Positions 4,247 to 24,096 of a stretch of DNA of 64,000 nucleotides are shown in pieces; the stretch's first letter is position 1; each line of letters starts with the position of its first letter. Position numbers and translations under genes: made by a program. The stretch comes from Parapedobacter soli (GTDB lineage Bacteria > Bacteroidota > Bacteroidia > Sphingobacteriales > Sphingobacteriaceae): NCBI RefSeq assembly GCF_025460835.1, contig NZ_JAMXAY010000001.1:124001-188000 (forward strand), written 5' to 3'. The notes under the pieces were generated by a model. It saw only the letters and a list, made by a program, of their open reading frames with translations. It was not told the origin of the DNA and did not search any database.

Positions 4247-4248
4247 TT

Positions 4249-5961: not shown

Positions 5962-5972
5962 TCCATTGTAAT

Positions 5973-6009
5973 AGGTACCGCCTTTCAGCATATAAAAAAG
6001 GCGGTACCT
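5973..6009 (+). terminator. Strong hairpin between susD and the lyase gene
   Basis: AGGTACCGCCTTT (5973-5985) is perfectly complementary to AAAGGCGGTACCT (5997-6009), giving a 13-bp stem with an 11-nt loop. The 3' side has only a short T-rich stretch. It may be a partial terminator or an mRNA-stabilising hairpin that sets susCD expression above that of the downstream enzymes. Confidence 0.65.
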
Positions 6010-6053
6010 TTAACTAATTTTAATGCAAAGCTTTCCACTAAAAAGACCACACA

Positions 6054-7982: not shown

Positions 7983-8033
7983 TCTCCCGTAATTAGCAAG
8001 CCAAGCACGGGTTGTTGAATATTTAAAAACGCT

Positions 8034-9689: not shown

Positions 9690-9727
9690 TAACAAGTCAT
9701 TAGTTAAGACTGAAAGATAGAAAAATT

Positions 9728-10969
9728 ATGCTAAAGTTAAATTTATTAGGAATAGCGGGGCTGTGCTTTATAGCTTCATCATTCATGGGATGCACCGCAC
9801 AAAAGGGCGAAACTCCGCAGGGGGCAATCATCGACACCGGGTTTACAAGGGCATCGGTTCAATTTACGAACATGCTGGATACGGTTGCTAAATACCGGAC
9901 TGATAATAAATTCTTACCCAAATCAGTAGGTAAAGATGGTAAAAATACGTTGTCGGGCATTTACGATTGGACGAGTGGCTTTTTCCCTGGTTCCCTGTGG
10001 TACCTTTATGAATACAGCCAGGACCAGAAGTGGAAAGCAGAAGCAGAAAAATGGACGTCTTTTTTAGAGCCGGTGAAAGACTTCCACGGCCATCATGATG
10101 TCGGTTTTATGATTTATAGCAGCTATGGCAACGGTTACCGGTTGATGGGGAACGACGCGTATAAAGCGGTAATCATTCAGGCGGCCCGATCATTGAGCAA
10201 GCGTTATAATGAAAAGGTAGGCGCCATCTTATCATGGGATACGGACAAGGGGTGGCAGTCTGAAAGGGGATGGGAATATCCAGTAATCATCGATAACATG
10301 ATTAACCTGGAACTCCTTTTCAAAGCAACGGAGTTCAGTGGCGACTCCTCCTTTTATAAAATTGCCGTTTCGCATGCAGATCGGACCCTTGAAAACCACT
10401 TCCGGCCAGACTACAGTTCTTTCCATGTGGTCGACTACGACCCTGAAACAGGAGAAGTGAGGCATCGGCACACGGCTCAGGGCTTCTCACACGAATCTGC
10501 GTGGGCACGTGGACAGGCGTGGGCCGTATATGGTTATGCCCTTTGTTACAGCGCAACGGGGGACGAACGCTATTTGGTGCAGGCGCAACACATCGCCGAC
10601 TATATTTTGAACCATCCTAACCTACCGGCTGATCTCATTCCCTATTGGGATTTTAATGACCCCAAAATCCCCAATACGTATCGGGATGCCTCCGCCGGTG
10701 CAATCATCGCTTCGGCGTTATTGAGCCTTGCGGATATGGCCGATCCGGAGAAAGCAGCTACCTATCAGGATGCAGCGGTCAAGATGTTGCAATCGCTTTC
10801 GTCTGACGATTATTTAGCGAAACCGGGCACCAACAATGGCTTTATCCTAAAGCATAGTGTGGGCTCCATTCCGCATGACAATGAAATCGATGTGCCATTA
10901 TCCTACGCGGATTATTATTACTTGGAAGCTTTATTAAAATACCAGGCCATCTTGAAAGCTGGGAACTGA
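9728..10969 (+). CDS. GH88 unsaturated glucuronyl hydrolase (lipoprotein)
   Basis: A 413-residue (alpha/alpha)6-barrel enzyme that removes 4,5-unsaturated uronic acid from lyase-generated oligosaccharides. The N-terminus is a lipoprotein signal (LCFIASSFMGC), implying periplasmic or outer-membrane anchoring. GH88 features include GIYDWTSGFFPGSLWYLYEY, FHGHHDVGFMIYSSYG, HTAQGFSHESAWARGQAW and IPYWDFNDPKIPNTYRDASA. Its pairing with a heparinase-like lyase and a GH20 supports a hexosamine-uronate polymer as substrate. Its stop codon lies within a stable hairpin (10955-10996). Confidence 0.93.
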   Translation: MLKLNLLGIAGLCFIASSFMGCTAQKGETPQGAIIDTGFTRASVQFTNMLDTVAKYRTDNKFLPKSVGKDGKNTLSGIYDWTSGFFPGSLWYLYEYSQDQKWKAEAEKWTSFLEPVKDFHGHHDVGFMIYSSYGNGYRLMGNDAYKAVIIQAARSLSKRYNEKVGAILSWDTDKGWQSERGWEYPVIIDNMINLELLFKATEFSGDSSFYKIAVSHADRTLENHFRPDYSSFHVVDYDPETGEVRHRHTAQGFSHESAWARGQAWAVYGYALCYSATGDERYLVQAQHIADYILNHPNLPADLIPYWDFNDPKIPNTYRDASAGAIIASALLSLADMADPEKAATYQDAAVKMLQSLSSDDYLAKPGTNNGFILKHSVGSIPHDNEIDVPLSYADYYYLEALLKYQAILKAGN

Positions 10970-10996
10970 TATAACCGTCAGTTACAGCCCAGCTTT
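10955..10996 (+). terminator. Hairpin overlapping the GH88 stop codon
   Basis: AAAGCTGGG (10955-10963) pairs with CCCAGCTTT (10988-10996). Inside it AACTGA (10964-10969) pairs with TCAGTT (10978-10983), with a short bulge between the stems. No long U-tract follows, so termination may be incomplete. It marks the end of the susC-to-GH88 unit. Confidence 0.55.
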
Positions 10997-11029
10997 GGTT
11001 TAGTCAAATAGCGATAGACAATCGCCCTC

Positions 11030-11047
11030 TTAGACAATCGGTTGCGT
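11030..11047. repeat. 18-bp direct repeat, copy 1 (operator-like)
   Basis: TTAGACAATCGGTTGCGT occurs here and again at 11834-11851, bracketing the toxin-antitoxin genes and a coding remnant. Its core (GCAACCGATTGT on the other strand) matches the GCAAnCGnTTGC pattern seen upstream of susC. Confidence 0.6.
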
Positions 11048-11088
11048 GAGGGAAAGCTCAAGCGGTGAGACAATATATAGTAAAGGCA

Positions 11089-11367
11089 TCATTTATCCTC
11101 ATAATGCCCTCATAATGAAAGTATTAAGACAATGACAGTCTCCTCTTGGATTCTATATACTAACCGGTGCTTGCCAGTAATCCTCCTTGACCAGGTAGGT
11201 GTATGGTAATACTTCAATTTCTCTGGTTTCCCAGTTCCGAAGCTAGGGTGTTCGCGGAGTTCATCCAATAACTTGTCGATCTTAACAAGCACTTTCCTAT
11301 CCCCCGCCTTTTTATGCCTTTCTATATCCTGTTCAGCCTCAGGCGTTACCTCAATGGCATAACTCAT
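11089..11367 (-). pseudogene. RelE/ParE-superfamily toxin of the Txe/YoeB type, interrupted by an in-frame stop
   Basis: The frame from 11367 encodes 85 residues and then stops at 11110. Recognisable features are SYAIEVTPEAEQDIERHKK at the start, a central KPEKLKYY segment and WSRRITGKHRLVYRI. Such toxins are ribosome-dependent mRNA endonucleases. Directly after the TGA at 11112-11110 the same frame continues with GHYEDK and then a second stop at 11089. GHY-type endings are the usual C-terminus of this family and contribute active-site residues. The first TGA therefore looks like a nonsense change of an Arg or Trp codon and probably inactivates the toxin. The start overlaps the antitoxin stop by 4 bp. 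Confidence 0.75.
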
Positions 11368-11588
11368 AATCCCAAAAATTCGCGTTGCTTATCTTTAGTG
11401 AGTGTTTTGGTGTTCCCTTGTTCGGCCTGGGTCAGCGACTTGTCTATTTTGGCGACAAAATCTTCTTCACTTAACCATATGTCGTCTTTCGTGTTTGCTA
11501 TTTCAAACCGGACCTTCATTTCTTCCAACAGGGACTTGAGCAAAGATTTTTGCTTTTCATTCTTCGGATAAATGGTGATACTTTCCAT
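11364..11588 (-). CDS. Antitoxin-like small protein paired with the Txe/YoeB-like toxin
   Basis: A 74-residue acidic/basic protein starting MESITIYPKNEKQKSLLKSL. The N-terminal half is predicted to mix strand and helix; the C-terminal half (EEDFVAKIDKSLTQAEQGNT onward) is helical and charged, as in antitoxins that wrap their toxin. It resembles the small DUF2683-like antitoxins common in Bacteroidota. The 4-bp overlap with the toxin (11364-11367) is typical of toxin-antitoxin operons. Because the toxin appears truncated, this antitoxin may now be an orphan. Confidence 0.7.
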   Translation of the reverse strand: MESITIYPKNEKQKSLLKSLLEEMKVRFEIANTKDDIWLSEEDFVAKIDKSLTQAEQGNTKTLTKDKQREFLGL

Positions 11589-11679
11589 GACTCCAACGTT
11601 ATAACCGCAATATTATACCTGAGGCAAAAATACAAATTTTATTTAACGAAACCGTGAATCGCGACTGAGCCCGGCGAAT

Positions 11680-11826
11680 CAGCCTCCTCGGTTTAGCAGG
11701 TTAAATTTAAGCAGCTATACGTGCGAGATGACCGAAGAAATGGCCAACGCCTGCAAAGCAGCAATCAAAGCGATGGACTTACCCAAGCCGAAAGTGGATA
11801 TCAGCAGGCTGACAGGCAAGCGGTAA
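11680..11826 (+). pseudogene. Possible C-terminal remnant of a lost gene
   Basis: The plus frame ending at the TAA 11824-11826 reads RLNLSSYTCEMTEEM, then ANACKAAIKAMDLPKPKVD, then ISRLTGKR. It looks like the C-terminus of a real protein, but no complete gene precedes it and the only ATG (11727) would give 32 residues. I do not recognise the family. It lies between the toxin-antitoxin pair and the second direct repeat, which suggests rearrangement here. Confidence 0.35.
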
Positions 11827-11833
11827 CCTGAAA

Positions 11834-11851
11834 TTAGACAATCGGTTGCGT
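11834..11851. repeat. 18-bp direct repeat, copy 2, upstream of the GH109 promoter
   Basis: Exact copy of the 11030-11047 repeat. Its operator-like core (ACAATCGGTTGC, 11838-11849) ends 13 bp before the -33 box of the next promoter, a position suited to transcriptional control of the GH109 gene. Confidence 0.6.
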
Positions 11852-11862
11852 TGCTCTCCTAT

Positions 11863-11893
11863 TTTGATAACTCAGCAAACTATCTTATACTTG
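11863..11893 (+). promoter_or_regulatory. Bacteroidota-type promoter for the GH109 gene
   Basis: TTTG (11863-11866), then exactly 19 bp, then TATACTTG (11886-11893), one mismatch from TAnnTTTG. A CTTGTT/AACAAG inverted repeat follows at 11890-11906. The GH109 start lies about 70 bp downstream. Confidence 0.6.
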
Positions 11894-11961
11894 TTAAACA
11901 AACAAGTCCGTCCGGCTAAGGCAGGACAGTCGCTGGTCAATGAAGATTAAATGATAAGCAG

Positions 11962-13383
11962 ATGAACTATAATCGCAGAAATTTCCTGAAAAGCGCCACA
12001 CTCCTCTCAGGGGCTGTCGCCGCACTGCCCGCCGTGGCACGCGAGGTACATGAAACCGGCAACGATTGGTTGCTCAATACCCAGCCGGGACTTCCGCAGC
12101 GATTCAATATGAGTGGCTATGCCGCACCAAAAATCGATAAAGTCCGCATCGGATTCATCGGCCTGGGCCAGCGCGGCCCGGGTGCCGTGACCCGTATGTC
12201 GCGCATCGAAGGGGTTGAAATCAAAGCATTGTGCGATAAGTTCCCCGATCGCGCAGCAAAGGCCCAAAACATCCTGGCAAAAGCAGGCCTGCCCAAAGCC
12301 AAAGAGTATTCGGGCGAGGATGGCTGGAAAGATATGGTGGCCAATGAGGACCTGGACCTCGTATACATCTGCACACCATGGGACCTCCATACGCCCATGG
12401 CAGTATATGCCATGGAGCACGGCAAACACGCGGCAAGCGAAGTGCCTATCGCCATCACACTGGATGAATGCTGGCAACTGGTGGAAACATCGGAACGAAC
12501 GAAGAAGCACTGCATGATGCTCGAGAACTGCTGCTACGACTTCTTCGAGATGCTCACCCTCAACATGGCCCGCAACGGCCTGTTCGGCGAAATCCTGCAT
12601 GCCGAGGGGGCATATATCCACGATCTGCTCGATCTCAACTTCGATAAAGACGGGTATGCCGACATGTGGCGGCTGCGGATGAATGCCACCCACAACGGTA
12701 ACCTCTACCCCACACATGGCCTAGGCCCCATCGCACAGTGCCTCAATATAAACCGTGGCGACAAGATGGACTACCTCGTGTCGATGTCTACCAACGACTT
12801 CATGATGGCCGAAACAGCCGATGCGAAAGCTGCCGATGATTCGTTTTTCGAACGGTTTGCCGGGCGCACCTACCGCGGCAACATGAACACCACGCTCATA
12901 CATACCGCTAAGGGCAAGACGATGATGGTACAGCACGACGTAACCTCTCCACGGCCATACTCCCGTATCCACCTCATCAGTGGTACCAAAGGCGTGGCCC
13001 GCAAATGGCCATCGCCCGAGCGCATCGCTTTTGGCCACAACTGGGTAAAAGACGACGAACTGAAAGACCTTTACGATAAGCATACCCCCGCACTCATTAA
13101 ACATGTGGGTGAAGTAGCAAAGCAGGTGGGTGGCCACGGCGGTATGGACTTCATTATGGACTGGCGGTTGATCGATTGCCTGCGCAACGGGCTGCCGTTA
13201 GACCAGGATGTCTACGACGGCGTGGCGTGGAGCTGCATATTCCCGCTGAGCGAACAGTCAGTTGCACGGCGCTCGCAGTCGCTGGATATCCCCGATTTTA
13301 CCCGGGGGGCCTGGAAACACAACAAGCCCGTAGATCTGACCCTCGAAGGTGGGGCCACCACCGGCGTACGTAAAGTCGGATAA
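11962..13383 (+). CDS. GH109 alpha-N-acetylgalactosaminidase (Gfo/Idh/MocA fold, exported)
   Basis: A 473-residue protein with a Tat-type signal (NRRNFLKSATLLSGAVAALP) and the NAD-binding Rossmann motif GFIGLGQRGPGAV near residue 55. Features resembling known GH109 enzymes include CTPWDLHTPMAVYAMEHGKH, LNMARNGLFGEILHAEGAYI and ATHNGNLYPTHGLGPIAQ. GH109 enzymes remove alpha-linked GalNAc by an NAD-dependent redox-elimination mechanism; folding with cofactor before export explains the Tat signal. It shares the operator-like motif of the upstream PUL, suggesting membership of the same regulon. A generic Gfo/Idh/MocA oxidoreductase is the alternative. Confidence 0.85.
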   Translation: MNYNRRNFLKSATLLSGAVAALPAVAREVHETGNDWLLNTQPGLPQRFNMSGYAAPKIDKVRIGFIGLGQRGPGAVTRMSRIEGVEIKALCDKFPDRAAKAQNILAKAGLPKAKEYSGEDGWKDMVANEDLDLVYICTPWDLHTPMAVYAMEHGKHAASEVPIAITLDECWQLVETSERTKKHCMMLENCCYDFFEMLTLNMARNGLFGEILHAEGAYIHDLLDLNFDKDGYADMWRLRMNATHNGNLYPTHGLGPIAQCLNINRGDKMDYLVSMSTNDFMMAETADAKAADDSFFERFAGRTYRGNMNTTLIHTAKGKTMMVQHDVTSPRPYSRIHLISGTKGVARKWPSPERIAFGHNWVKDDELKDLYDKHTPALIKHVGEVAKQVGGHGGMDFIMDWRLIDCLRNGLPLDQDVYDGVAWSCIFPLSEQSVARRSQSLDIPDFTRGAWKHNKPVDLTLEGGATTGVRKVG

Positions 13384-13405
13384 CATCACTATTCACAGAT
13401 GCGCC

Positions 13406-14560
13406 TCATACCGCTTTGACGGCCATGAGGTGCTCTATTGCCCTTTCTAGAGTTTCTTCGCGCTTGGCAAAGCAAATCCTGATCAACCCCTGATTGACCG
13501 CACCACTGTAGAATGCCGATACCGGTATCGTGGCCACACTGTGCTTGCGGGTAAGCCATTGGCAGAATGCCAGCTCGGACTGGTCGCTGATGGCAGCATA
13601 ATCCGCCAGCAGAAAATACGTGCCTTGGCAGGGTAACGGCACAAACGGGGTGCCCGCAAGCCCATGCAGCAACAGGTCACGTTTTTTCTGGAAAAATGTA
13701 TGGAGCCACCGGTATTCATCCGGTATGCCCAAGAAATCGGCCAGCGCATATTGGATAGGGGTATTAACACTGAACACATTGAACTGATGCACCTTGCGGA
13801 ACTCTGCCATCAGGTCGCGCGCCGCAAGGCAGTATCCCACTTTCCAGCCCGTTATATGGTAGAGCTTGCCAAACGACGCCACAACGAACGTACGCTCGCG
13901 TAAGTCGGCATAATGGGCTGCACTACGGTGTGTCTTGCCGTCGAATACCACATGTTCGTAAACCTCATCGCTCAACAGGAAACAATCTGTCCTCCGGACG
14001 ATGTTTGAAAGCATACGGTAATCAGCATCATCCAATACACGTGCCGTCGGATTGTTGGGCGAATTGATAACAATGAGCCTGGTCCTGCTGGTCACCAGCT
14101 CCGCCACAGTTTGCCAATCGATCGCAAAATCAGGCGCCAACAAAGCAATGGGTTTGGGAATACCCCCGAATATACGTACGGTGGGCGAGTAGGCATCATA
14201 CGCAGGTTCGAAAAGGATAACCTCATCGCCCGGCCGTATAAGCGCTGCCATCGCGGTAAACAACGCTTGGGTAGCCCCAGCAGTCACGGTAATTTCAGTT
14301 TCAGGGTGATAACAATTGCCCGAACTCGCCTCCACTTTGGCGGCAATACGTTCGCGAAGGGCCGTTACGCCGGCCATCGGGGCGTACTGATTGTGGCCGG
14401 CCCGCATGTAGTGGCCAACCAATTCGACAAGCCGCGGCGAACAGTCAAAATCAGGGAACCCCTGGGAAAGGTTAATCGCCCCATATTGGGCAGCCAGCGA
14501 AGACATCTCGCTGAAGATAGATGTACCGGTATCGGGCAACTTTGATTTCAACAGTACCAT
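13406..14560 (-). CDS. Class I/II PLP aminotransferase, methionine (kynurenine)-type
   Basis: A 384-residue cytosolic fold-type I aminotransferase. Visible features are INLSQGFPDFDCSP near the N-terminus, the cofactor region TAGATQALFTAM, INSPNNPTARV, LLSDEVYEHVVF and the PLP-lysine motif SFGKLYHITGWKVGY. This combination is closest to the YbdL/methionine-aminotransferase group, which interconverts methionine and 2-keto-4-methylthiobutyrate, the last step of methionine salvage. It starts 14 bp after the XRE regulator stop, so the two form an operon. A SAM riboswitch controls the divergent operon, which strengthens a methionine role. Substrate assignment is by resemblance and context. Confidence 0.85.
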   Translation of the reverse strand: MVLLKSKLPDTGTSIFSEMSSLAAQYGAINLSQGFPDFDCSPRLVELVGHYMRAGHNQYAPMAGVTALRERIAAKVEASSGNCYHPETEITVTAGATQALFTAMAALIRPGDEVILFEPAYDAYSPTVRIFGGIPKPIALLAPDFAIDWQTVAELVTSRTRLIVINSPNNPTARVLDDADYRMLSNIVRRTDCFLLSDEVYEHVVFDGKTHRSAAHYADLRERTFVVASFGKLYHITGWKVGYCLAARDLMAEFRKVHQFNVFSVNTPIQYALADFLGIPDEYRWLHTFFQKKRDLLLHGLAGTPFVPLPCQGTYFLLADYAAISDQSELAFCQWLTRKHSVATIPVSAFYSGAVNQGLIRICFAKREETLERAIEHLMAVKAV

Positions 14561-14574
14561 ATAGATGTAACCAA

Positions 14575-14967
14575 TTAGAATGCCTTGGTCTCCTTCAGGA
14601 TTTCCTGATAGAAACGGATGTTGTCTTCCAACCGTGCAATATACGCTTCTTTATCGTGTATGATTTTATCATATAATGCTTTCTCTTCGTTGATAAACCG
14701 CTCGACATCTTCCTGAGGCAGTTTTTCGGCACCTACCAGTGTAGCCAATGTTACGTCCAATACGGCTGCTATCTGGTCAAGCCGGTCGATATCTATCCGT
14801 GTAATACTCCCCTCAATGTTCTGGTAGGTCTTCAGGGCAATGTGCAAGGCCGTGGCCATTTCGGCTTGGGACAAGCCCCGATCTTTTCGCAACCGTTTAA
14901 TTTTCGCCAGAATAGTTGTCTGTCCCATCATCGTATCGTTTGGTAAAAAATAGTTGGTGTCCGACAT
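14575..14967 (-). CDS. XRE-family helix-turn-helix regulator
   Basis: A 130-residue DNA-binding protein from the ATG at 14967 (MSDTNYFLPND), preceded by an AAGG ribosome-binding-like stretch. A longer TTG-started form to 15021 is possible, but its start would fall in the -7 box. The HTH is clear: KRLRKDRGLSQAEMATALH, then KTYQNIEGSITRIDIDRLDQ. A charged helical tail (about residues 85-130) probably forms a coiled coil. It is cotranscribed with the aminotransferase and divergent from the riboswitch operon. Palindromes at 15044-15058 and 15146-15168 overlap both promoters, implying autoregulation plus control of the import operon. Confidence 0.9.
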   Translation of the reverse strand: MSDTNYFLPNDTMMGQTTILAKIKRLRKDRGLSQAEMATALHIALKTYQNIEGSITRIDIDRLDQIAAVLDVTLATLVGAEKLPQEDVERFINEEKALYDKIIHDKEAYIARLEDNIRFYQEILKETKAF

Positions 14968-15018
14968 GCCTTGTCCCTTTTTAGTGACTTTACCAATACC
15001 CCGCTGTTGTCGACGAGG

Positions 15019-15026
15019 CAAATGTA
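15019..15026 (-). promoter_or_regulatory. -7 promoter box for the XRE-aminotransferase operon
   Basis: On the minus strand this reads TACATTTG, identical to the -7 box of the divergent operon. No clear TTG lies at the -33 distance; the palindrome at 15044-15058 occupies that position. Confidence 0.5.
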
Positions 15027-15043
15027 TAATTTTTTTAAAAAGA

Positions 15044-15058
15044 CTACTTGAATAGTAG
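15044..15058. promoter_or_regulatory. Inverted repeat, candidate XRE operator 1
   Basis: CTACT-tgaat-AGTAG, with perfect 5-bp arms, lies at the -33 region of the XRE promoter. It shares the core TTGAATA(A)GTAGATT with the second repeat at 15146-15168. Confidence 0.5.
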
Positions 15059-15145
15059 ATTATTTTTTTACATACAGATGATGCAAGAATGATTAGTAAA
15101 ACAGCTTTGTCATACGAATATCACAACATTCCACTCACACAGATA

Positions 15146-15168
15146 AAATCTATTGAATAAGTAGATTT
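15146..15168. promoter_or_regulatory. Inverted repeat, candidate XRE operator 2
   Basis: AAATCTA (15146-15152) and TAGATTT (15162-15168) are a perfect 7-bp inverted repeat with a 9-bp spacer. The spacer contains the -33 TTG of the import-operon promoter, so a bound protein would block RNA polymerase. Confidence 0.55.
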
Positions 15169-15182
15169 AATTCCTACATTTG
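15153..15182 (+). promoter_or_regulatory. Promoter of the SAM-riboswitch operon
   Basis: TTG (15153-15155), 19 bp, then TACATTTG (15175-15182), an exact TAnnTTTG match. Transcription should start near 15188-15192, about 20 nt before the riboswitch. Confidence 0.7.
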
Positions 15183-15208
15183 CGGCGCATCAGTTCTTTT
15201 GTTTTATG

Positions 15209-15308
15209 CTTATCAAGAAAGACCGAGGGAAAGGCCCAGTGACGTCTTAGCAACCTGAAGCTCTCTTAAGGTGCTAAATCCTGCTTCCGATGTAGAGGCA
15301 AAGATAAG
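15209..15308 (+). ncRNA. SAM-I (S-box) riboswitch
   Basis: Conserved S-box elements occur in the right order. P1 is CTTATC (15209-15214) with GATAAG (15303-15308). Next comes CAAGAAAGACCGAGGGA with GGCCC (15233-15237). GTCTTAGCAACC (15244-15255) follows, where GTCT pairs back to AGAC. Then AAGGTGCTAAATCC (15268-15281), and a P4 stem TGCTTC/GAGGCA (15282-15287 with 15295-15300). SAM binding normally switches the downstream genes off. I see no classical terminator before the start at 15430. AAGTG/AAGAT near the 3' P1 strand could pair with CACTT (15391-15395) and ATCTT (15403-15407) as an alternative fold, which is speculative. Confidence 0.9.
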
Positions 15309-15429
15309 TGACTACAATCTTGGTAACCCTGAAAATACCGCAACGGCATGTCGCCGGCACAAGGAAAATGAACAGCAAAAGAGCTCGTTGCACTTGACTG
15401 GCATCTTACTTAACATTAATAGATTTCAT

Positions 15430-16872
15430 ATGATCAATAAACAGACAATAATAATCGGGGCAGTGGCTTTAATGTTTCCGGCCATATTGCTGGGGCAGCA
15501 ACAGGCGGCAGTACCGCTCAACTACCTCGATAACGAGTTCACTACGTACGACCGTATTCAAAAGGCGATATGGTCTGCGCCCGAGCTGGGCTTTTTGGAA
15601 ACGCAGAGTTCGGGCCTGCTGCAGGAGCACCTCCGGTCGGAAGGGTTTACTGTCGAGACCGGACAGGCCGGCATGCCTACCGCTTTTGTTGCCACGTATG
15701 GGAGTGGTGCACCTGTCATCGGGCTCCTGGCCGAGTTTGACGCCCTACCCGGCATTTCGCAAGATACCGTACCGTACCGCAAGCCCGTGGAGGCTGACGG
15801 AGACGGCCACGCTTGCGGCCATAATGTATTCGGCACAGCCTCCGTCGCCGGTGCTGTAGCCATCAAGAAGTGGCTCGCCGAAACCGGCCACCAGGGCACC
15901 GTCAAAGTATATGGCACACCGGCCGAAGAAGGCGGCGGCGGTAAGGTTTACCTCGTACGCGACGGGTTCTTCGAGGGTGTCGACATCGTGCTGGATTGGC
16001 ATCCATCCACCAGGAATGCAGTGAATATGACCACCGGCACAGCCATCCAGATGGTAGACTATACCTTCAGGGGCAAAGCAGCGCACGCGGCTGCCAGCCC
16101 CGATAAAGGGCGGTCTGCGCTCGATGGTGTGGAGGCATTCAATTACATGGTCAATATGCTGCGCGAACATATCCCAACCGCATCACGGATCCATTACGTA
16201 ATCACAAACGGCGGCGAAGCACCCAACATCGTCCCCGAAGTCGCAACGGTATCCTACTACATACGCCACCCGAACCGGGAAGTGCTGCAAGATCTCACCA
16301 AATGGTTGGGTGAAGCCGCAGCAGGCGCAGCCCAGGGCACGCAGACCACCGTAGAAACGGAGATTGTCGCCGGGTTTTACGAAAGGTTGCCTAATAGGGC
16401 CCTGGCCGAAGTGGTACAGAAAAACCTGGAGTCGGTCGGCGGTATCCATTACGATACCCGCGAGCGGGCATTCGCCGAAGAAATCGTCAAAGGCAACGGC
16501 CTGCCCATCACCGCCCTCGATGAAGTGGCTAGGGTACAACCCCTGGCCGATGAAAAACCCTCCCAGGGAGGCGGGTCGTCGGATGTAGGCGACGTCAGTT
16601 GGAATGTACCCACCGTCTCATTCGGAACAGCTACATTCGTTCCGGGAAGTCCGGGCCATAGCTGGCAGAATGTAGCCGCCGGCGGCACCACCATTGGCAC
16701 CAAATCGCTCATCAACACCGCCAAAGTCTTTGCACTTACCGCCATCGACCTGTATACGAAGCCCACACTGGTTGAGGAAGTGAAAAAAGAATTTGACTCC
16801 CGGAGAGGTGCCGGTTTCAAATACGAGTCGTTGCTTGGCGACCGCACACCCGCATTGGATTACCGAAAATAA
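15430..16872 (+). CDS. Secreted M20 (AbgB-like) amidohydrolase/peptidase
   Basis: A 480-residue metal-dependent amidohydrolase with signal peptide MINKQTIIIGAVALMFPAIL. The ATG at 15430 is the right start; the frame is open further upstream but would run into the riboswitch. Metal-site motifs are HACGHN (127-132), PAEEGGGGK (164-172) and DWHPS (189-193), with a late His in GSPGHSW. The lid domain lies at about residues 200-320. Relatives hydrolyse N-acyl amino acids, aminobenzoyl-glutamate or dipeptides. As first gene of a SAM-controlled operon with SusC/SusD, it may release methionine or another sulfur amino acid from a conjugate in the periplasm; the substrate is unknown. Confidence 0.88.
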   Translation: MINKQTIIIGAVALMFPAILLGQQQAAVPLNYLDNEFTTYDRIQKAIWSAPELGFLETQSSGLLQEHLRSEGFTVETGQAGMPTAFVATYGSGAPVIGLLAEFDALPGISQDTVPYRKPVEADGDGHACGHNVFGTASVAGAVAIKKWLAETGHQGTVKVYGTPAEEGGGGKVYLVRDGFFEGVDIVLDWHPSTRNAVNMTTGTAIQMVDYTFRGKAAHAAASPDKGRSALDGVEAFNYMVNMLREHIPTASRIHYVITNGGEAPNIVPEVATVSYYIRHPNREVLQDLTKWLGEAAAGAAQGTQTTVETEIVAGFYERLPNRALAEVVQKNLESVGGIHYDTRERAFAEEIVKGNGLPITALDEVARVQPLADEKPSQGGGSSDVGDVSWNVPTVSFGTATFVPGSPGHSWQNVAAGGTTIGTKSLINTAKVFALTAIDLYTKPTLVEEVKKEFDSRRGAGFKYESLLGDRTPALDYRK

Positions 16873-16882
16873 ATGATTGGAT

Positions 16883-17875
16883 ATGAAAAGGAAAATATCA
16901 ATAGGAACTCTTCTCCTGCTGTTCTTGGCTTCAGCCCAAGCACAGCAACTAACCGCGCTGCAGCTCGAAGGGACCGTAACCGGAAGCGACAATGGCACCA
17001 TCTACCTCCAGCGTTTCGATAACAAGATCTTCCGTGTAGTAGACTCGGCAGCGATACGGAATGGCAACTTCGCTTTCAGCACAGCTGTGGAGCTGCCCGA
17101 ACTCTATGGCCTTACCCTCGATACCAACAGGACACCGCTCTATGTCTTTTTGGAAGACGCACCCATTACCGTAGCCTTTGATACCGACGACTACCGGAAT
17201 TCAGTCGTCACGGGGTCCAAATCCCACGATCGGTTCGTCGACTACAATGAGCGCCAGCGAAACGTCCAAATCGCAGACTTCATCAAAGAAGATCCCGCAT
17301 CTATCACCACAGCCTACGTGCTGTACCGCAATTTCGCCTACCGGATGGGGCCCCAAGAGATCAGGGAACATACCGCCCTCCTGGCCCCCTCACTCCAAAA
17401 CACGCAATACGTAACCGTTTTGCATGGCCTGGCTAATACATTGAAAACCGTTTTGCCGGGGAAAAAGGCGCCCGATTTCACGTCGACCGCCCCCGATGGC
17501 AGTACCGTCCGGTTTTCAGACCACCTGGGTAAGGGCTATGTATTGCTCGATTTCTGGGCAGCGTGGTGCGGGCCATGCCGCCGCGAAAACCCCAATGTCG
17601 TGGCCGCATACCAGCAGTATAAAGACAAAGGGTTTACCGTGTTCGGCGTATCGCTCGATAAGACCAAAGCCGCCTGGCTCAAAGCCATTGAAGCAGATGG
17701 GCTTACTTGGCCCCATGTGTCAGAACTTACTTTCTGGGACAGCAAAGCCGCTGCGATTTACGGTGTACGGGCCATCCCCAGCAACTTCCTCATCGGACCC
17801 GACGGAACCATCGTAGCACGGAACCTCCGTGGAGAAGAGCTGCACAACAAACTTAAGGAGCTCATCGGTGGGTAA
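16883..17875 (+). CDS. TlpA-like thiol-disulfide oxidoreductase with DUF4369-like N-terminus
   Basis: A 330-residue exported protein (signal MKRKISIGTLLLLFLASAQA). Residues 25-120 form a DUF4369-like beta domain (LEGTVTGSDNGTIYLQRFDN). Residues 193-330 form a thioredoxin fold with the active site WCGPC (Cys 229 and 232), followed by the cis-Pro segment AIPSNFLIG. It reduces or isomerises disulfides in the periplasm. It begins 10 bp after the M20 gene. Such proteins are widespread in Bacteroidota, but their presence in a SAM-regulated import operon would suit a thiol or disulfide cargo such as cystine- or homocystine-like compounds. The ATG at 16883 is preferred over a TTG two codons earlier. 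Confidence 0.9.
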   Translation: MKRKISIGTLLLLFLASAQAQQLTALQLEGTVTGSDNGTIYLQRFDNKIFRVVDSAAIRNGNFAFSTAVELPELYGLTLDTNRTPLYVFLEDAPITVAFDTDDYRNSVVTGSKSHDRFVDYNERQRNVQIADFIKEDPASITTAYVLYRNFAYRMGPQEIREHTALLAPSLQNTQYVTVLHGLANTLKTVLPGKKAPDFTSTAPDGSTVRFSDHLGKGYVLLDFWAAWCGPCRRENPNVVAAYQQYKDKGFTVFGVSLDKTKAAWLKAIEADGLTWPHVSELTFWDSKAAAIYGVRAIPSNFLIGPDGTIVARNLRGEELHNKLKELIGG

Positions 17876-17919
17876 CCAGATACGTTAAGAAGAAATCAAA
17901 CATATCCATAAAAAAAGAT

Positions 17920-17964
17920 AAGCGCTCCCTGAAGCCAATTGCAGTCGGACACTCGGAAGCGCTT
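17920..17964 (+). other. Intercistronic hairpin upstream of the second susC
   Basis: AAGCGCTCC (17920-17928) pairs with GGAAGCGCTT (17955-17964) with a single bulged base, about 25 nt before the susC start. It sits in a 114-bp gap inside an otherwise tight operon. It could be an mRNA-processing or attenuation point; no U-tract follows. Confidence 0.45.
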
Positions 17965-17989
17965 ACTTCTAAAGCAACTGTTCAGAATT

Positions 17990-20900
17990 ATGACAAATAT
18001 AACGCTTTTTAATAGCGGCAGGTTTTCTAATCGGCTGCTAAACCGATATATCCCCGCATTTTTTATCTTTTTCCTATACGCCATCGCCTCCTATGGGCAA
18101 CACACCATACGCGGCACGGTTGTAGACGATGCCGGAAATGCCATAGCCGGAGCCACCATTGCTATCCAATCGACAAACAAAAGCACGGTTACCGATACGG
18201 ATGGCAACTTTGCCATCACTGCCGACGGGTCGCTGCCCGTTACCCTTACGGCAACATTCATCGGGTACAAGCCCCAGCAGCTCACCGTGGCAACTGCCAG
18301 CACCCCGCTCACCATCAGCTTAGCCGAAGACGTGAACGTACTGGATGAAACCGTGGTGGTAGGCTACACCACTGCCAAACGATCGAGCTATACGGGGTCG
18401 GTGGCGGTGGTGGGCGCCCGCGAACTGGAAAACCTGCAGATCACCACGGTAGGGAAAGCGCTGCAAGGGACAGTCCCCGGCATGCAGTCCGTTGCCCAAG
18501 CCGGCCAGCCCGGAAGTGATGCAGAGCTGTTCGTACGCGGGGTGGGTTCCGTAAATGCGTCCACGGCACCGCTCTATGTGATAGACGGCGTGCCCGGTGC
18601 AAGCATCAACCAATTGAACCCGAAAGACATCCAATCCATATCGGTATTGAAAGACGCCACGGCGAGTGCGCTCTATGGATCGAGGGGCGCCAACGGTGTC
18701 ATCGTGGTAACCACCAAATCAGGCCGCTTGAACGCGAAGCCTACCGTCAATTTTTCCACCAACTTCGGGTACACCGGCCGGGCAGTGAAAGATTACGAAT
18801 ACCTTTCCACAACGGCATATTACGAACTGCAATGGGAGGCTATACGCAACACCCAACTGGACCAGGGCAAATCGGCCGCCGAAGCCGCACAATACGCCAC
18901 GGATTACCTCGTGGATGGGGCACTGAAGGTCAACATTTTCGGGCCACAGTACCCGAATCCCGTCGGCACGGATGGCCAATTGGCTGCCGGGGCAACACCG
19001 CTGTGGAATGACGACTGGGGGAGTGCTATCTCACGCCCGGGCCTGCGGCAACAGTATGACCTGAGTGTAAGCGGCGGAAGCAGCAATACCAAATATTATT
19101 TTTCAGGTGGCTACCTGAATGAGCAGGGCTGGATCAGGACGTCCGAATTCGAGCGTTACAATTTCCGCACGAACGTACAGTCGAAAATAAACGATTGGTT
19201 CGATATCGGCGCAAACGTCTCGCTATCGTCCAGCCACCAGCGCGCACCCACGCAGAGCGACAGCAACCAAGGCAATGTTGCCAATTTCCAGCGGCTCATC
19301 TCGAATATTTACCCCGTGTACGAACGCAATCCGGACGGATCCTATAAACTCGATGAAAATGGCAACAAGAAGTGGGACTACGGCATCTGGCGTCCCACCA
19401 CTGCGGCCAGTGGCTTCAATGTGCTGGGAAGTTCGGAACATGCCATCTTCGGCAACCGGACCGACGCCGTACTGCTCGGCACCAACCTAACGGTGACCTT
19501 CCTGGATGGCTTGTTTTTGCGCTCCACGGCAAGTATCGACTATAGGGCCGGCAACGCCCACACCTATTCCCACCCGTATTACAGCACGGGCGTGATCGCA
19601 GACGGTGCGGGCTCCGCCAGCAGAAGCTCCAGCCGTACACTCAACTACACCATAAATAGCTTCATCAACTACGCGCCTTACCTGGGTGGTTCACACAATG
19701 TCACTCTCCTGGCTGGCCCGGAAGTCTACGTAAACCGGATAGAATCGCTCTCGGGGAGCAGGTCTGGATTCCCTATTTTGGGAAAAACCGAACCCTCTGC
19801 CGGAACGGTGATCGACGGGTTCGACGGTACTTCGGCCGACTACCACCTATCAAGCTGGCTGGCGCAGGTAAACTACGACTACCTGGGCCGATACCATTTC
19901 TCGGCCAGTTTCCGCCGCGATGGCTCGTCCCGCTTCAGCCAACAGGCACGCTGGGGTAATTTCTGGTCGGTAGGGGCAGCCTGGAATGTTAAGCAGGAGA
20001 ACTTCTTGAACGATGTGAGTGCCATAGACAATGCCAACCTGCGGTTCAGCTATGGTGCACAGGGCAATGACAATGTAGGCAACTACGCTTACGGCGGCTT
20101 CTATTCGATCTACAACAGCTTGGATATGCTCGGCTTACTGCCCTCGGACCTCCCCACGCCCAACCTGAAATGGGAAACCAACCTGAACCTCAACTTCGGG
20201 GTTGATATCTCATTGTTCAACAACCGCCTCATTGCCCAGCTCGACGTATTCGACCGGCAGTCGAAAGACCTGCTGTTCACCAAACCGCTCTCCCCTTCGA
20301 CGGGTTACAGCGGCATCGATGCCAACATCGGCTCCTTGAGCAACCGCGGTATCGACGGGCAGATTACGGGTGTCCCCATCCGCAACAACGACTTCCGCTG
20401 GGACGTGACGCTCAATTTCGGGCACTATACAAACAAAATCACCAAGCTGCCGCAAGATGAGATACTGACCGGCTCGATCGGCCAATACGGCAACACCAAA
20501 AAAATGGTGGAAGGTGGGTCAATCTACGATTTCTACATCAAGGAATGGGCTGGCGTGAACCCTGAGAATGGCAAAGCCATGTGGTATAAGGACGTGGTAG
20601 ATGCAAATGGAAATGTCACGGGAAGGACTACAACAGAAAACCAGACCGAAGCGACCCCTTACTTCCAAGGAAGTTCGCTCCCCGATCTCTACGGGGGCTT
20701 GAGCAACAGCTTTTCGTACAAGGGATTCGATCTCTCATTCCTTCTGTCATACAATATCGGCGGCAAAATTTTCGATGGCGACCAGCCAATGGTCATGCAC
20801 CTGGGCTACGCACCGGGGCGCAACTGGTCTAACGAAGCACTCACCCGATGGACACCGGAAAATACCGATACGGATTTCCCACGGCTCTCCTACGTTTCTG

Positions 20901-21166
20901 ACTCCTGGAACACCATCCCCTCCACCCGCTTCCTGTTCGACGCGACGTATGCACGGCTGAGGAATGTCAACCTCTCGTATACCTTGCCGCAAAACCTCGT
21001 TTCGCGGTGGGGGCTCGACGATATACGGATTGGATTGGTCGGTGAAAACCTATTGACCTTTTATGGGCATAAAGGGCTAGACCCCGAACAAACCGTGTCG
21101 GGCACAACCTATTACCGCTACCCGGCCCAAAAAGCGTATTCCTTGGTGCTCAATGTTTCTTTTTAA
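17990..21166 (+). CDS. SusC/RagA-family TonB-dependent transporter of the SAM-riboswitch operon
   Basis: A 1058-residue outer-membrane transporter from the ATG at 17990 (MTNITLFNSGRFSNRLLN, then YIPAFFIFFLYAIASYG). It has a carboxypeptidase-regulatory-like domain (HTIRGTVVDDAGNAIAGATI), a TonB-box-like segment (VLDETVVVGYTTAKRSSYTG) and plug motifs (LFVRGVGSVNASTAPLYVID, SVLKDATASALYGSRGANG). A C-terminal barrel ends in YSLVLNVSF. No CAZyme lies in this operon; it is preceded by a peptidase and a thioredoxin and controlled by a SAM riboswitch. The cargo is therefore probably not a glycan. A peptide, an acylated amino acid or another sulfur metabolite is more likely. This is inference. Confidence 0.92.
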   Translation: MTNITLFNSGRFSNRLLNRYIPAFFIFFLYAIASYGQHTIRGTVVDDAGNAIAGATIAIQSTNKSTVTDTDGNFAITADGSLPVTLTATFIGYKPQQLTVATASTPLTISLAEDVNVLDETVVVGYTTAKRSSYTGSVAVVGARELENLQITTVGKALQGTVPGMQSVAQAGQPGSDAELFVRGVGSVNASTAPLYVIDGVPGASINQLNPKDIQSISVLKDATASALYGSRGANGVIVVTTKSGRLNAKPTVNFSTNFGYTGRAVKDYEYLSTTAYYELQWEAIRNTQLDQGKSAAEAAQYATDYLVDGALKVNIFGPQYPNPVGTDGQLAAGATPLWNDDWGSAISRPGLRQQYDLSVSGGSSNTKYYFSGGYLNEQGWIRTSEFERYNFRTNVQSKINDWFDIGANVSLSSSHQRAPTQSDSNQGNVANFQRLISNIYPVYERNPDGSYKLDENGNKKWDYGIWRPTTAASGFNVLGSSEHAIFGNRTDAVLLGTNLTVTFLDGLFLRSTASIDYRAGNAHTYSHPYYSTGVIADGAGSASRSSSRTLNYTINSFINYAPYLGGSHNVTLLAGPEVYVNRIESLSGSRSGFPILGKTEPSAGTVIDGFDGTSADYHLSSWLAQVNYDYLGRYHFSASFRRDGSSRFSQQARWGNFWSVGAAWNVKQENFLNDVSAIDNANLRFSYGAQGNDNVGNYAYGGFYSIYNSLDMLGLLPSDLPTPNLKWETNLNLNFGVDISLFNNRLIAQLDVFDRQSKDLLFTKPLSPSTGYSGIDANIGSLSNRGIDGQITGVPIRNNDFRWDVTLNFGHYTNKITKLPQDEILTGSIGQYGNTKKMVEGGSIYDFYIKEWAGVNPENGKAMWYKDVVDANGNVTGRTTTENQTEATPYFQGSSLPDLYGGLSNSFSYKGFDLSFLLSYNIGGKIFDGDQPMVMHLGYAPGRNWSNEALTRWTPENTDTDFPRLSYVSDSWNTIPSTRFLFDATYARLRNVNLSYTLPQNLVSRWGLDDIRIGLVGENLLTFYGHKGLDPEQTVSGTTYYRYPAQKAYSLVLNVSF

Positions 21167-21185
21167 CCTACTTATCTTTTCATAT

Positions 21186-22688
21186 ATGAAACGCAGATCT
21201 AATTATATAGCAATAGCGCTGATTCTATTCGCCTCATGCAGCGACAGCTTTTTCGACACCACCCCAGCAACACAGGTTACTACGCCCGAAGTTTTCTCTT
21301 CCGAGAGTAATATCGATGCTTTTGTCAATGGAGCTATCCGCTTCCTGATGGAAAACAGCACCTCGCAAGACAACCCCGGGCTCCCCACTATTTTCCTTAC
21401 CCACGATGTGATGGGGGAAGATGCCTTCGCCCGCGATGGCCGATACGGTTACCGCGACTCCTACCCCTACCGGGACCCTTTTGACAATACGACCCGCCGT
21501 GCATTGTTTTTCTGGACGTTGCAATACACGTCAATAGACCATGCAAACAACATCATCGCCAACATTGCACTTGATGATAACAGCACGCCTACCCTGAGGT
21601 ATCTCAAAGGACAGGGTTATGCATTGCGTGCCCTCAACTACCTGAACCTGGTGCGGCAGTACCAATTCACTTATGCAAAAGACGCGAATGCGAAAGCCAT
21701 ACCGATTTATACCGAGCCAACCACACCCGAAACGGAGCCCAAACCGCTGTCTACCGTCCAAGAGGTGTATAACCAAGTAATCAGCGACCTCACGGAAGCC
21801 GAGAAACTATTGCCGGGCTTTGAGCGGGTCGTAAAGAACCGGCTCGATATCCATGTAGTCTATGGCTTGTTTGCCCGTACCTACCTGACGCTCGAAAACT
21901 GGGACCTCGCCAAAACCTATGCTGCCAAAGCACGGGAGGGATATCCCATTATGACCGCCGTACAGTATACCGAAGGTTTCAACGATGTCAACAATCCCGA
22001 ATGGATTTGGGGCCACCCCCAAACCGCCACCCAGAACCTCGGCGGCGCCTCCTATCTCGCATACATCGAGACAACACCCTATACAACCAACGCCGAAGGC
22101 ACCAACCTGTATTACGGATATAATAGCATCATGCCCGACCCGTATTTCATTGCCTTGTTTGAGGATGGCGATATCCGTAAGTCGTTGTTCGAGATTGCCT
22201 CCCAACCCAACGAGGCGCTGTACCGCCACTACCGCTACCGCAAATTCCGCAACAAATACCCCAACCATGATGGGCATATCGTGCTGATGCGCGCATCCGA
22301 GCAACTGCTCATCGAGGCCGAAAGCGAAGCGCGGCTGGGCGATGTGGCTGCGGCCGTGGAGACGCTCAACGAATTGCGGCGCAACCGCAACCTTCCCGAC
22401 CTGTCGCCAGCGGAATACAACCAGACCACCATCATCGATGAAATCCTGTTGGAGCGCCGGAAGGAACTCTGGGGCGAAGGATTCCGTTTATACGACATCC
22501 TACGGCTGCAGACCGCGCCCGTAAGACGGGAAACAACACAAACCTTTGTCGACGATGCGGGTAACACGGTATCGCTCAGGGGGCACTGGATCACCAAATT
22601 CCCCGATGGATCGGAACTGACACCCAACAGCAAATACTACCTGTTCCCGATACCGCTGAATGAAATCAATAACAACCCGAACCTGTGA
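21186..22688 (+). CDS. SusD/RagB-family lipoprotein of the SAM-riboswitch operon
   Basis: A 500-residue substrate-capture lipoprotein from ATG 21186, with signal KRRSNYIAIALILFASC and Cys acylation. It has the SusD N-domain (SDSFFDTTPATQVTTPEVF), the TPR core (LKGQGYALRALNYLNLVRQY) and the C-terminal SusD domain (LMRASEQLLIEAESEARLGD, then LERRKELWGEGFRLYDILR). It ends at NNPNL. It starts 19 bp after susC and is followed by a strong terminator. Together with the preceding SusC it would form the lid and barrel of one transporter. Confidence 0.93.
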   Translation: MKRRSNYIAIALILFASCSDSFFDTTPATQVTTPEVFSSESNIDAFVNGAIRFLMENSTSQDNPGLPTIFLTHDVMGEDAFARDGRYGYRDSYPYRDPFDNTTRRALFFWTLQYTSIDHANNIIANIALDDNSTPTLRYLKGQGYALRALNYLNLVRQYQFTYAKDANAKAIPIYTEPTTPETEPKPLSTVQEVYNQVISDLTEAEKLLPGFERVVKNRLDIHVVYGLFARTYLTLENWDLAKTYAAKAREGYPIMTAVQYTEGFNDVNNPEWIWGHPQTATQNLGGASYLAYIETTPYTTNAEGTNLYYGYNSIMPDPYFIALFEDGDIRKSLFEIASQPNEALYRHYRYRKFRNKYPNHDGHIVLMRASEQLLIEAESEARLGDVAAAVETLNELRRNRNLPDLSPAEYNQTTIIDEILLERRKELWGEGFRLYDILRLQTAPVRRETTQTFVDDAGNTVSLRGHWITKFPDGSELTPNSKYYLFPIPLNEINNNPNL

Positions 22689-22722
22689 CAACCACAGAAA
22701 CAGGCAATAAACATAAGCGATA

Positions 22723-22759
22723 AAAAAAGCGAAGGTCGTATCACCTTCGCTTTTTTTTT
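22723..22759. terminator. Strong bidirectional Rho-independent terminator
   Basis: AAAAAAGCGAAGGT and ACCTTCGCTTTTTT form a long stem around a short loop (CGTATC), with U-tracts in both directions. It ends the riboswitch operon and can also serve the convergent transporter gene that ends at 22849. Confidence 0.93.
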
Positions 22760-22848
22760 ACTTATTATCACCCGAGAGGCCCACAGCCCATTAAAACACA
22801 TCAAAGCCCTCACCTATCTCGCGGCATCATGGTCTAGTTGAGGCCACA

Positions 22849-24096
22849 CTAGGCAAACAGCCACCAGGCAACGGCCAATGTGATCAAGATATTGAAAAAC
22901 TGGGCGGCAAGGAACACGTAGAAAGGTTTGATGCTATTGTTGCCCAACAGGTCTTTGAAATTCGTTTCGAGGCCTATACTGGTAAAGGCCAGCGCGAACC
23001 ATAGCCCTTGTATACTTTTCACCCCTCCTTTCACGGCGCTTACCGTGGCGGCATCAAGCACGAACGAGAACAAGAGAGATGCCCCGATGAATCCCAGCAC
23101 GAACTTGGGGAAGCGCTCCCAGATCACACCCAGGCCGGGCTTTTCCACATACTGCCCATCAGGCGTGCCCCGGTAAGTCCAGTAGATGGAAATGGCCAAT
23201 GCGGCAATACCCAGCAATACGTTCTGTGAAAATTTCACAATGGTACTGATCTCGAGCGCACGCTCGCCCACCAAGCTACCCGAGGCCACCACGGCACCTG
23301 TGGTATCGATACTCCCGCCCAGCCATGCACCGGTCACCTCCTCGGGGAAGCCCAGCGCATTGGCTATATAGGGCATGCCGATCATCATCGGTATAGCCGC
23401 TATCAGCACCATCGAAACAACGTATGACAGCTTCTTGGAATCACCTTTGATGGCGCCGGATGTGGCAATGGCTGCCGACACACCGCAGATAGAGACCGCA
23501 CTCGAAATCATCATCGTCAGCTCATCATCCACCTTGAACTTGCGGCAGAGCCAAAATGCAAAATACCATACCGACAATACGACAATAAGCGATTGCACCA
23601 GCCCCAGCGACCCGGCTTTGAGGATATCGGAGAAGATTACCCGGGTACCCAACAGCACCAGCCCGATCTTCACCAGCAGCTCGGCATTCAACGAATCGCG
23701 GAACCACTGCGGCAGTTTGAATAAGTTGCCCACCAGCAGCCCGAGCAATAAGCTGAAAATAACCGTCTCCAGGCCGAGATCATTCAGAAAAGCATTGCCC
23801 GACAGGACCAGCGCCACGAGGGTAAGCATGAAAACGAACGGAAATCCCACAAGCTGGGATCTGACCGATTTACCGGTGATAAACGCTCCGATGATGACAA
23901 TGGCGTAGGCAAACAGGAACTGGAAGAAAACACTCGTGCCATTGCTAGCGGTAAGGAGGGAGGCCAAAGCGGTACCGTCGTTCCACTTATACTGCGGGGT
24001 AGGTATAGATAGGCCCGCAACGGCCAATAAGATAATGAGAAAACCCAAAAAAACGACAGCCCAATCTTCGGATAGCGTTATACGTGATGATGACAT
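22849..24096 (-). CDS. YeiH/UPF0324-family putative sulfate exporter
   Basis: A 415-residue polytopic inner-membrane protein with about ten hydrophobic segments. Family signatures are LLLGLLVGN near residue 135, AELLVKIGLVLLGTRV, ISSAVSICGVSAAIATSGAI and GAWLGGSIDTTGAVVASGSLVG. The family is annotated as putative sulfate exporters; experimental support is thin. It sits next to the SAM-controlled operon, which makes a sulfur-homeostasis role, such as export of sulfite or sulfate from organosulfur breakdown, attractive but unproven. It lies 21 bp downstream of the FAD oxidoreductase gene and probably shares its transcript. Confidence 0.87.
   Translation of the reverse strand: MSSSRITLSEDWAVVFLGFLIILLAVAGLSIPTPQYKWNDGTALASLLTASNGTSVFFQFLFAYAIVIIGAFITGKSVRSQLVGFPFVFMLTLVALVLSGNAFLNDLGLETVIFSLLLGLLVGNLFKLPQWFRDSLNAELLVKIGLVLLGTRVIFSDILKAGSLGLVQSLIVVLSVWYFAFWLCRKFKVDDELTMMISSAVSICGVSAAIATSGAIKGDSKKLSYVVSMVLIAAIPMMIGMPYIANALGFPEEVTGAWLGGSIDTTGAVVASGSLVGERALEISTIVKFSQNVLLGIAALAISIYWTYRGTPDGQYVEKPGLGVIWERFPKFVLGFIGASLLFSFVLDAATVSAVKGGVKSIQGLWFALAFTSIGLETNFKDLLGNNSIKPFYVFLAAQFFNILITLAVAWWLFA

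Follow-up and report, generated by a model that had tools for sequence, protein, structure and literature searches.

What does a SusC/SusD pair import when the RNA ahead of it is of a kind that senses S-adenosylmethionine (SAM)? The question is raised by an operon in a 64 kb stretch of DNA from Parapedobacter soli (Sphingobacteriaceae), which is called the window here and to whose positions all coordinates refer unless a locus is named. In this operon a SAM-I riboswitch, or S-box, precedes genes for an M20 amidohydrolase, a thioredoxin-like protein, the TonB-dependent transporter SusC and the surface lipoprotein SusD (Table 1). SusCD pairs are mostly known as glycan importers; a preliminary description of the locus, made from the sequence alone, proposed that the cargo of this one feeds methionine or SAM supply. 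We put at about 0.68 the probability that the operon encodes a SusCD-type importer which, together with periplasmic enzymes, scavenges sulfur-amino-acid compounds under two controls, the S-box and a palindrome upstream of it. The sulfur reading of the preliminary description is partly supported, being right in kind, with a cargo that is putative.

The riboswitch is as well formed as had been claimed. In a covariance-model search of the window with cmscan, RF00162 was the single Rfam match at gathering score in the 64 kb; the match extends over model positions 1–108 of 108, so that the aptamer is complete, and its score lies well above the family cut-off (Table 1). The four genes behind it were confirmed by family matches on the same strand and in the order described, with intergenic gaps of 10, 114 and 19 bp. 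SusC consists of a barrel with CarboxypepD_reg and plug domains and adjoins the SusD lipoprotein, as befits a SusCD pair; its best solved relatives are 8aa4 (412 bits) and then RagA (PDB 6sli, 369 bits). The M20 protein is placed in subfamily M20D by its TIGR01891 score and by residues C129, H131, E166, H191 and H410, which are invariant across nine aligned proteins and correspond to the Cys/His/Glu/His/His motif of an M20D metal site. A terminator scan gave nine candidates against a mean of 9.1 in shuffled sequence, and the sole long one follows SusD. The four genes behind the S-box are apparently one operon.

Nine Parapedobacter genomes hold 23 S-boxes, for which the first downstream gene is metY in nine cases, metE in nine, metF in two and the M20 operon in three. 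(Here and below, targets were named by reading and by blastp between loci, some of them also being scanned against family libraries.) That the other 20 of the 23 precede metY, metE or metF bears out the proposed tie of the operon's control to methionine, and in the window's own genome S-boxes also stand before metY and metE. A close M20 orthologue was found in three of the nine genomes, with an S-box in all three. The S-box and the M20, thioredoxin, SusC and SusD genes recur in the same order in P. luteus (locus L007; genome G003) and P. koreensis (L008; G078), with the aptamer and promoter conserved and the flanking DNA divergent.

In P. luteus the SusC and SusD at this place are a different pair, with 54% and 61% identity to those of the window. 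Such an exchange, like the 114-bp gap ahead of SusC, would suit an arrangement in which the S-box governs the M20 and thioredoxin genes only and SusCD, with its own promoter in the gap, handles an unrelated cargo. Between 15311 and 22688, however, no terminator rises above the background of the scan (no search for a −7 box was made in the gap), and in the tree described below the P. luteus SusC is nearest to that of genome G025, itself encoded directly behind an S-box and palindrome. We consider a separate SusCD promoter very unlikely.

The same combination was then sought in the rest of the family. A comparative search for other S-boxes upstream of susC had been proposed, and 25 distinct S-box-SusC loci, one double having been removed, were found in six genera: 16 in g13, three in g14, three in Parapedobacter and one each in g2, g3 and g25 (g numbers are our labels for genera). 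An even draw of 51 genomes across the family gave 113 S-box matches, 112 of them above the cut-off, including 10 in Parapedobacter genomes; 100 of the 102 non-Parapedobacter S-boxes above the cut-off were examined for targets. SusC lies within the first three downstream genes of five of these 100 (L141, L142, L153, L155 and L208), and a TonB receptor behind a Cys/Met pyridoxal phosphate (PLP) enzyme follows three (L156, L195 and L198). Nearly all other targets are metY, metX, hom, metH, metF or metE; a few S-boxes precede nifS, a peroxiredoxin gene, cysH-cysD or a cystathionine-synthase-like gene. The arrangement with cysH-cysD is seen in L240, L244 and L245, all of one genus (only L240 scanned). 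When the 31 best-scoring S-boxes were taken from a search of 201 family genomes, a biased set, 18 of 30 loci drawn from them led to SusC. We conclude that SusCD operons behind an S-box recur in Sphingobacteriaceae as a class, wider than the preliminary description knew.

A tree of 19 SusC proteins, seven of them without an S-box, resolves the 12 S-box proteins into two separate, fully supported sets. The first comprises those of the window, L008, L007 and G025; the second, eight proteins from g2, g3, g13, g14 and g20, pairs with SusD-like_2 proteins (L284 scanned, the others by blastp) and includes the gene orders TlpA-SusC-SusD and NifS-SusC-SusD. Locus L289 of g20 carries, on one strand (its positions 3371–9690), a palindrome, an S-box and genes for a NifS-like cysteine desulfurase, SusC and SusD.

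What sets this class apart is a palindrome, CTAY-N7-RTAG. In the window it stands 10 bases ahead of TAnnTTTG, a −7 box of Bacteroidota type. The pattern was derived from the window and the two orthologous M20 loci, and the window's copy falls within the 100 bp upstream of the S-box that were used to define the class. Within this distance the palindrome is present at 23 of the 25 SusC/M20 loci (all except L044 and L208), or 20/22 without the three M20 source loci; at 10 of 12 nifS S-boxes (9/11, as one locus was entered twice); at both peroxiredoxin S-boxes; and at L163. It is present at 0/108 methionine and other S-boxes and at 0/3 PLP-enzyme/TonB loci. By genus, it was found in five of the six with S-box-SusC loci. 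The association has a Fisher p of 8e-24, a value inflated by kinship, and shuffled upstream regions match at 0.6%. A first count had given 21/23 for SusC, 3/3 for M20, 13/124 for other S-boxes and 0/3 for PLP-enzyme/TonB loci, the 13 others being nifS (10), peroxiredoxin (2) and L163 (1). The aptamers fall along the same lines: among 152 entries compared (three loci entered twice), the 12 closest to the window's (0.83–0.89) are all of SusC, nifS or peroxiredoxin type and from other genomes, and the likeness to its own genome's metE and metY aptamers is 0.75 and 0.68.

Two simpler roles for the palindrome were rejected. That it marks SusC promoters at large is not supported, since one of 11 SusC genes without an S-box had it within 900 bp, and that it marks S-box promoters at large is at odds with the 0/108 above. 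In L163 the palindrome and S-box are followed by no same-strand gene of at least 70 residues for about 3.4 kb, and in L166 and L046 they precede a peroxiredoxin gene (L166 scanned).

The palindrome also lies upstream of a cobA-type uroporphyrinogen-III methyltransferase (siroheme) gene in all nine Parapedobacter genomes (one copy scanned). When a −7 box is required at 7–11 bases, it matches twice in the window's genome, at the operon promoter and at the cobA-type gene; the bare palindrome matches five times in the window, where 1.65 are expected. The recurrence of S-box-SusC loci, together with a palindrome common to a siroheme-type gene, points to sulfur. To judge from these sequences, palindrome and S-box look like one regulatory unit common to transport and scavenging operons.

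Some of these leaders may carry a further signal between S-box and gene. We scored short ATG open reading frames (ORFs) whose last five codons include two or more Cys. This definition was settled after a looser count, of ORFs with two or more Cys and any start codon, had given 18/23 for SusC and 46/107 for methionine genes. Such ORFs are found in 26 of 30 metY leaders (0.25 expected from shuffles), 6 of 18 SusC leaders (0.40), 3 of 11 metX leaders (0.08) and the one cystathionine-synthase-like leader. None was found for metH (0/40), metE (0/11), hom (0/7), nifS (0/12), TlpA-first (0/3), M20 (0/2), metF (0/4), peroxiredoxin (0/2) or PLP-enzyme (0/3) loci. These ORFs suggest Cys-sensing attenuation in tandem with the SAM-I riboswitch. 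Examples of the Cys-end ORFs are those of L145, L177, L178 and L002, among others, for metY and of L153, L155 and L033 for SusC; several metY leaders have runs such as CCCC just before the stop. Cys-containing short leader ORFs also occur upstream of a NirA-like sulfite/nitrite reductase gene (L323–L328) in six of the nine Parapedobacter genomes, with a hairpin and T run after the Cys ORF in several (by eye).

Overall, with confidence a little better than even, we propose that in Sphingobacteriaceae a unit of sulfur-type palindrome and SAM-I riboswitch, in some cases with a Cys leader, has come to stand before M20, TlpA and NifS genes and before SusCD pairs of two or more distant families, and that this unit would define a class of SusCD systems given over to organic sulfur rather than glycans, in which up to three sulfur signals are read before the importer is made.

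For the window's operon the following sequence of events may be envisaged. A sulfur-responsive regulator would act at the conserved CTAY-N7-RTAG site upstream of the −7 box. At high SAM the nascent RNA would fold the S-box and expression would be cut, whereas at low SAM it would continue; here the aptamer is assigned by family match and its activity is presumed. SusD and SusC, by analogy with their families, would capture and import a Cys or Met compound. In the periplasm the TlpA-like protein could reduce disulfides and the M20D enzyme could cleave an amide to release Cys or Met. The second, distant SusCD family, in sister genera, stands behind a similar control unit, at some loci with TlpA or NifS. 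The cargo is most likely a short peptide, an N-acyl amino acid or a disulfide holding Cys or Met; for any named compound our confidence is much lower than for the scavenging function as a whole.

A number of observations weigh against a sulfur-scavenging role. As to distribution, SusC was found behind none of the 28 S-boxes read outside the family, in the wider taxonomic class (the best-scoring ones, 1.5 kb each), the M20 orthologue is limited to three of nine genomes in its own genus, and 16 of the 25 SusC loci come from one genus, which is what inflates the Fisher p. As to the leader, the scan detected no clear terminator on the same strand in that of the window, and no Cys-rich ORF as defined above is present there, the only leader ORFs being MSPAQGK and MNSKRARCT; in the leaders of L155 and L284 a hairpin and T run are visible by eye. 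As to the palindrome, nifS and peroxiredoxin became classes of their own, apart from the other S-boxes, after the first count. Its distance from the −7 box varies. A strict spacing of 7–11 bases to the −7 box, counted before doubles were removed, is seen at 4/23 SusC, 3/3 M20 and 12/124 other S-boxes. Palindrome plus −7 box is not enriched in the nine Parapedobacter genomes, where it matches 28 times and its reversed form, as control, 34 times; an earlier, narrower pattern gave 11 against 9. The 28 comprise nine at cobA, three at the M20 operon, one after a YeiH gene in G045, seven of one G078 sequence and eight others. Finally, the promoter of a sulfite-reductase-like operon has no exact palindrome in the nine genomes; by eye, the left half-site is there and the right half is imperfect. 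The seven G078 matches are near-identical copies of a 33-base palindrome-like sequence on P. koreensis contigs C18, C25 and C27, perhaps a repeat element, and two of the eight others lie in front of one gene, of 286 residues, that P. luteus and P. koreensis have in common (L254 and L262).

The surroundings of M20 relatives count on both sides. Five Bacteroidales loci encode such relatives (L009–L012 at about 70% identity, L013 at 59%), and no S-box at gathering score was found in the DNA examined around them. Sulfur-amino-acid genes lie near M20 in two of the five, which speaks for sulfur scavenging, but only in those two. L011, from Parabacteroides massiliensis, has a MetY-type fragment at its edge and then a PatB C-S lyase, ahead of SusC, SusD, an S9 peptidase, M20 and an SDF symporter. 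In a Tannerella metagenome-assembled genome (L012) an M14 peptidase accompanies SusD (68% identity), thioredoxin (54%) and M20 (70%). Gaps of about 420 bp (L011, after PatB) and 355 bp (L012) part the sulfur genes from the M20 side, and by reading no sulfur genes were seen in L009, L010 or L013. The sulfur genes of L012, at its positions 12050–18456 and after the 355 bp, are MetY and NifH/NifD/NifK/NifB-like. Its D-like protein matches PDB 9fmg with 847 bits and 9d9u with 845, the next nitrogenase scoring 119; these two entries, labelled 'Nitrogenase' only in the match table, are methylthio-alkane reductase (Mar), which would make this a probable Mar cluster. At four loci read for relatives with 50–57% identity (L081, L082, L084 and L086) there was no consistent sulfur neighbour. 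An M20 protein from another genus (G111, 72% identity) lies in a glycan-type locus, beside SusD and a heparinase-like protein with GH88 nearby, with no S-box within 1.5 kb. Because of this locus, and of the two in five above, the presence of M20 does not by itself mark a link to sulfur.

A further point is the SDF symporter, of glutamate/dicarboxylate type, that follows M20 in three of these loci (L011, and by reading also L009 and L010); it would fit a Glu-containing cargo or peptide. It favours uptake of a folate fragment or glutamyl conjugate, in which an AbgB-like M20D enzyme salvages a Glu conjugate and the SAM control reflects the link of folate to methionine. The M20 protein does match an aminobenzoyl-glutamate utilization protein (PDB 3io1), distantly, with 49.7 bits, but HmrA (PDB 3ram, 182 bits) and Xaa-Arg dipeptidase (149 bits) are its nearest solved relatives by far. 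Moreover, no folate gene was noticed in the part of the window read, and a glutamyl cargo leaves TlpA, NifS and the palindrome common to cobA unexplained. Because sulfur neighbours are seen in only two of the five Bacteroidales loci and the glutamate-type symporter recurs, we slightly lowered our confidence in sulfur scavenging and slightly raised that in glutamyl uptake, which we nevertheless hold to be highly improbable. Glutathione, or another thiol peptide with Glu in it, would be compatible with either reading.

Glycan genes are not far from the operon either. GH20, GH88 and GH109-like genes, which the preliminary description did not mention, lie at 8034–13383, beyond the aminotransferase described below. 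With the G111 locus and the general association of SusCD with glycans, they would be in keeping with a glycan importer under borrowed control, its substrate an N-acylated or sulfated, glycosaminoglycan-like glycan whose amide M20 cleaves, and the S-box tuning uptake to the biosynthetic state or to sulfate content. Within the operon, however, family scans of the four genes (15430–22688) revealed no carbohydrate-active enzyme, as had been stated, and no sulfatase, so that it does not qualify as a polysaccharide-utilization locus. The P. luteus locus drops the GH109-aminotransferase neighbours and keeps the S-box, M20, thioredoxin, SusC and SusD, and elsewhere S-box and palindrome also stand before SusCD with TlpA or NifS, with no carbohydrate-active enzyme seen between. 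A glycan cargo seems to us unlikely, and uptake of a sulfur-amino-acid compound remains our preferred explanation.

The divergent neighbours, an XRE regulator and a methionine-type aminotransferase, are as first described (Table 1). Their proposed link to the operon fares less well. The promoter of the pair bears the palindrome CTAY-N7-RTAG in all three copies read (window, L008 and G068), although G068 yielded no close relative of M20; the pair adjoins the operon in the window and P. koreensis and is missing from the P. luteus locus, and the link is weak. On the other side, a convergent YeiH-type gene lies outside the operon. In other Parapedobacter genomes YeiH-type genes adjoin the palindrome or the cobA gene (L251, L258 and L271, by reading).

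Table 1. The operon, its control elements and its neighbours, in window positions
Feature	Position	Strand	Basis
PLP aminotransferase, methionine-aminotransferase subfamily	13406–14560	-	PRK09082, 572 bits (cut-off 420)
XRE/HTH_3 regulator (start codon chosen by us)	14575–14967	-	PF01381, 43.2 bits
Putative operator 1, palindrome CTAC-N7-GTAG upstream of XRE-aminotransferase	15044–15058	.	Sequence match; also in L008 and L282
Putative operator 2, palindrome CTAT-N7-GTAG upstream of S-box	15150–15164	.	Kept in L007 and L008
TAnnTTTG, Bacteroidota-type −7 box (presumed)	15175–15182	+	Sequence; kept in L007 and L008
SAM-I (S-box) riboswitch aptamer	15207–15310	+	RF00162, 75.1 bits (cut-off 44.4), E 8.7e-16
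Leader, aptamer to first gene	15311–15429	+	No terminator on this strand in the scan; no Cys-rich ORF
M20D amidohydrolase, secreted (by eye)	15430–16872	+	TIGR01891, 250.9 bits (cut-off 153.75)
DUF4369 + AhpC-TSA/TlpA thioredoxin-like protein, secreted (by eye)	16883–17875	+	PF14289, PF00578
SusC/RagA TonB-dependent outer-membrane transporter	17990–21166	+	TIGR04056, 825 bits (cut-off 368.25)
SusD-like surface lipoprotein	21186–22688	+	PF07980, PF14322; PDB 3snx, 293 bits
Intrinsic terminator after SusD	22722–22757	+	15-pair stem and T run
YeiH-type transporter, convergent neighbour, outside operon	22849–24096	-	PF03601, 175 bits

Several known systems resemble parts of this one. RagAB of Porphyromonas, which imports peptides, is a SusCD-type pair whose RagA ranks second among the solved relatives of the window's SusC; the window's SusD is closer to PDB 3snx and 3lew than to its RagAB counterpart, and we know of no riboswitch for RagAB. 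The polycysteine attenuators of mycobacteria are short, Cys-rich leader ORFs before sulfur operons, and the leader ORFs described here are alike in both respects; these, however, are found in Sphingobacteriaceae, behind SAM-I in the leaders of many metY and some SusC genes, and not in the window. In one search of the open-access literature, no paper on such attenuators in Bacteroidetes looked relevant. Mar clusters share with our proposal the supply of organosulfur to methionine, and one probably lies near the Tannerella M20 gene, but no such genes are present in the part of the window read.

With the SAM-I methionine regulons the operon shares a complete RF00162 aptamer, which the same genome also has before metY and metE; it differs in its target, a SusCD importer, and in the upstream palindrome, which separates its class from the 108 methionine and other S-boxes. 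A parallel in design is offered by the BtuB/BtuG loci of Bacteroides, where, according to PMC6143338, a cobalamin riboswitch fronts a TonB-dependent importer and a surface lipoprotein. Both systems have a metabolite riboswitch ahead of such a pair; here the riboswitch and the transporter family are others, and the cargo is putative. For Bacteroidaceae, PMC3766115 lists two RNA regulogs in its Table 2. Control of SusCD by a SAM riboswitch was not found in the open-access literature, a search in which subscription papers are mostly uncovered.

Assignment of SusCD systems to glycans is close to automatic, and for the majority no cargo is known. A metabolite-sensing RNA ahead of SusCD points to a nutrient class, here the sulfur amino acids, and two distant transporter families are under like control. 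With the unit of palindrome and S-box as a rule, other genomes can be searched for such importers, and the unit suggests a route by which these Bacteroidota may obtain organic sulfur.

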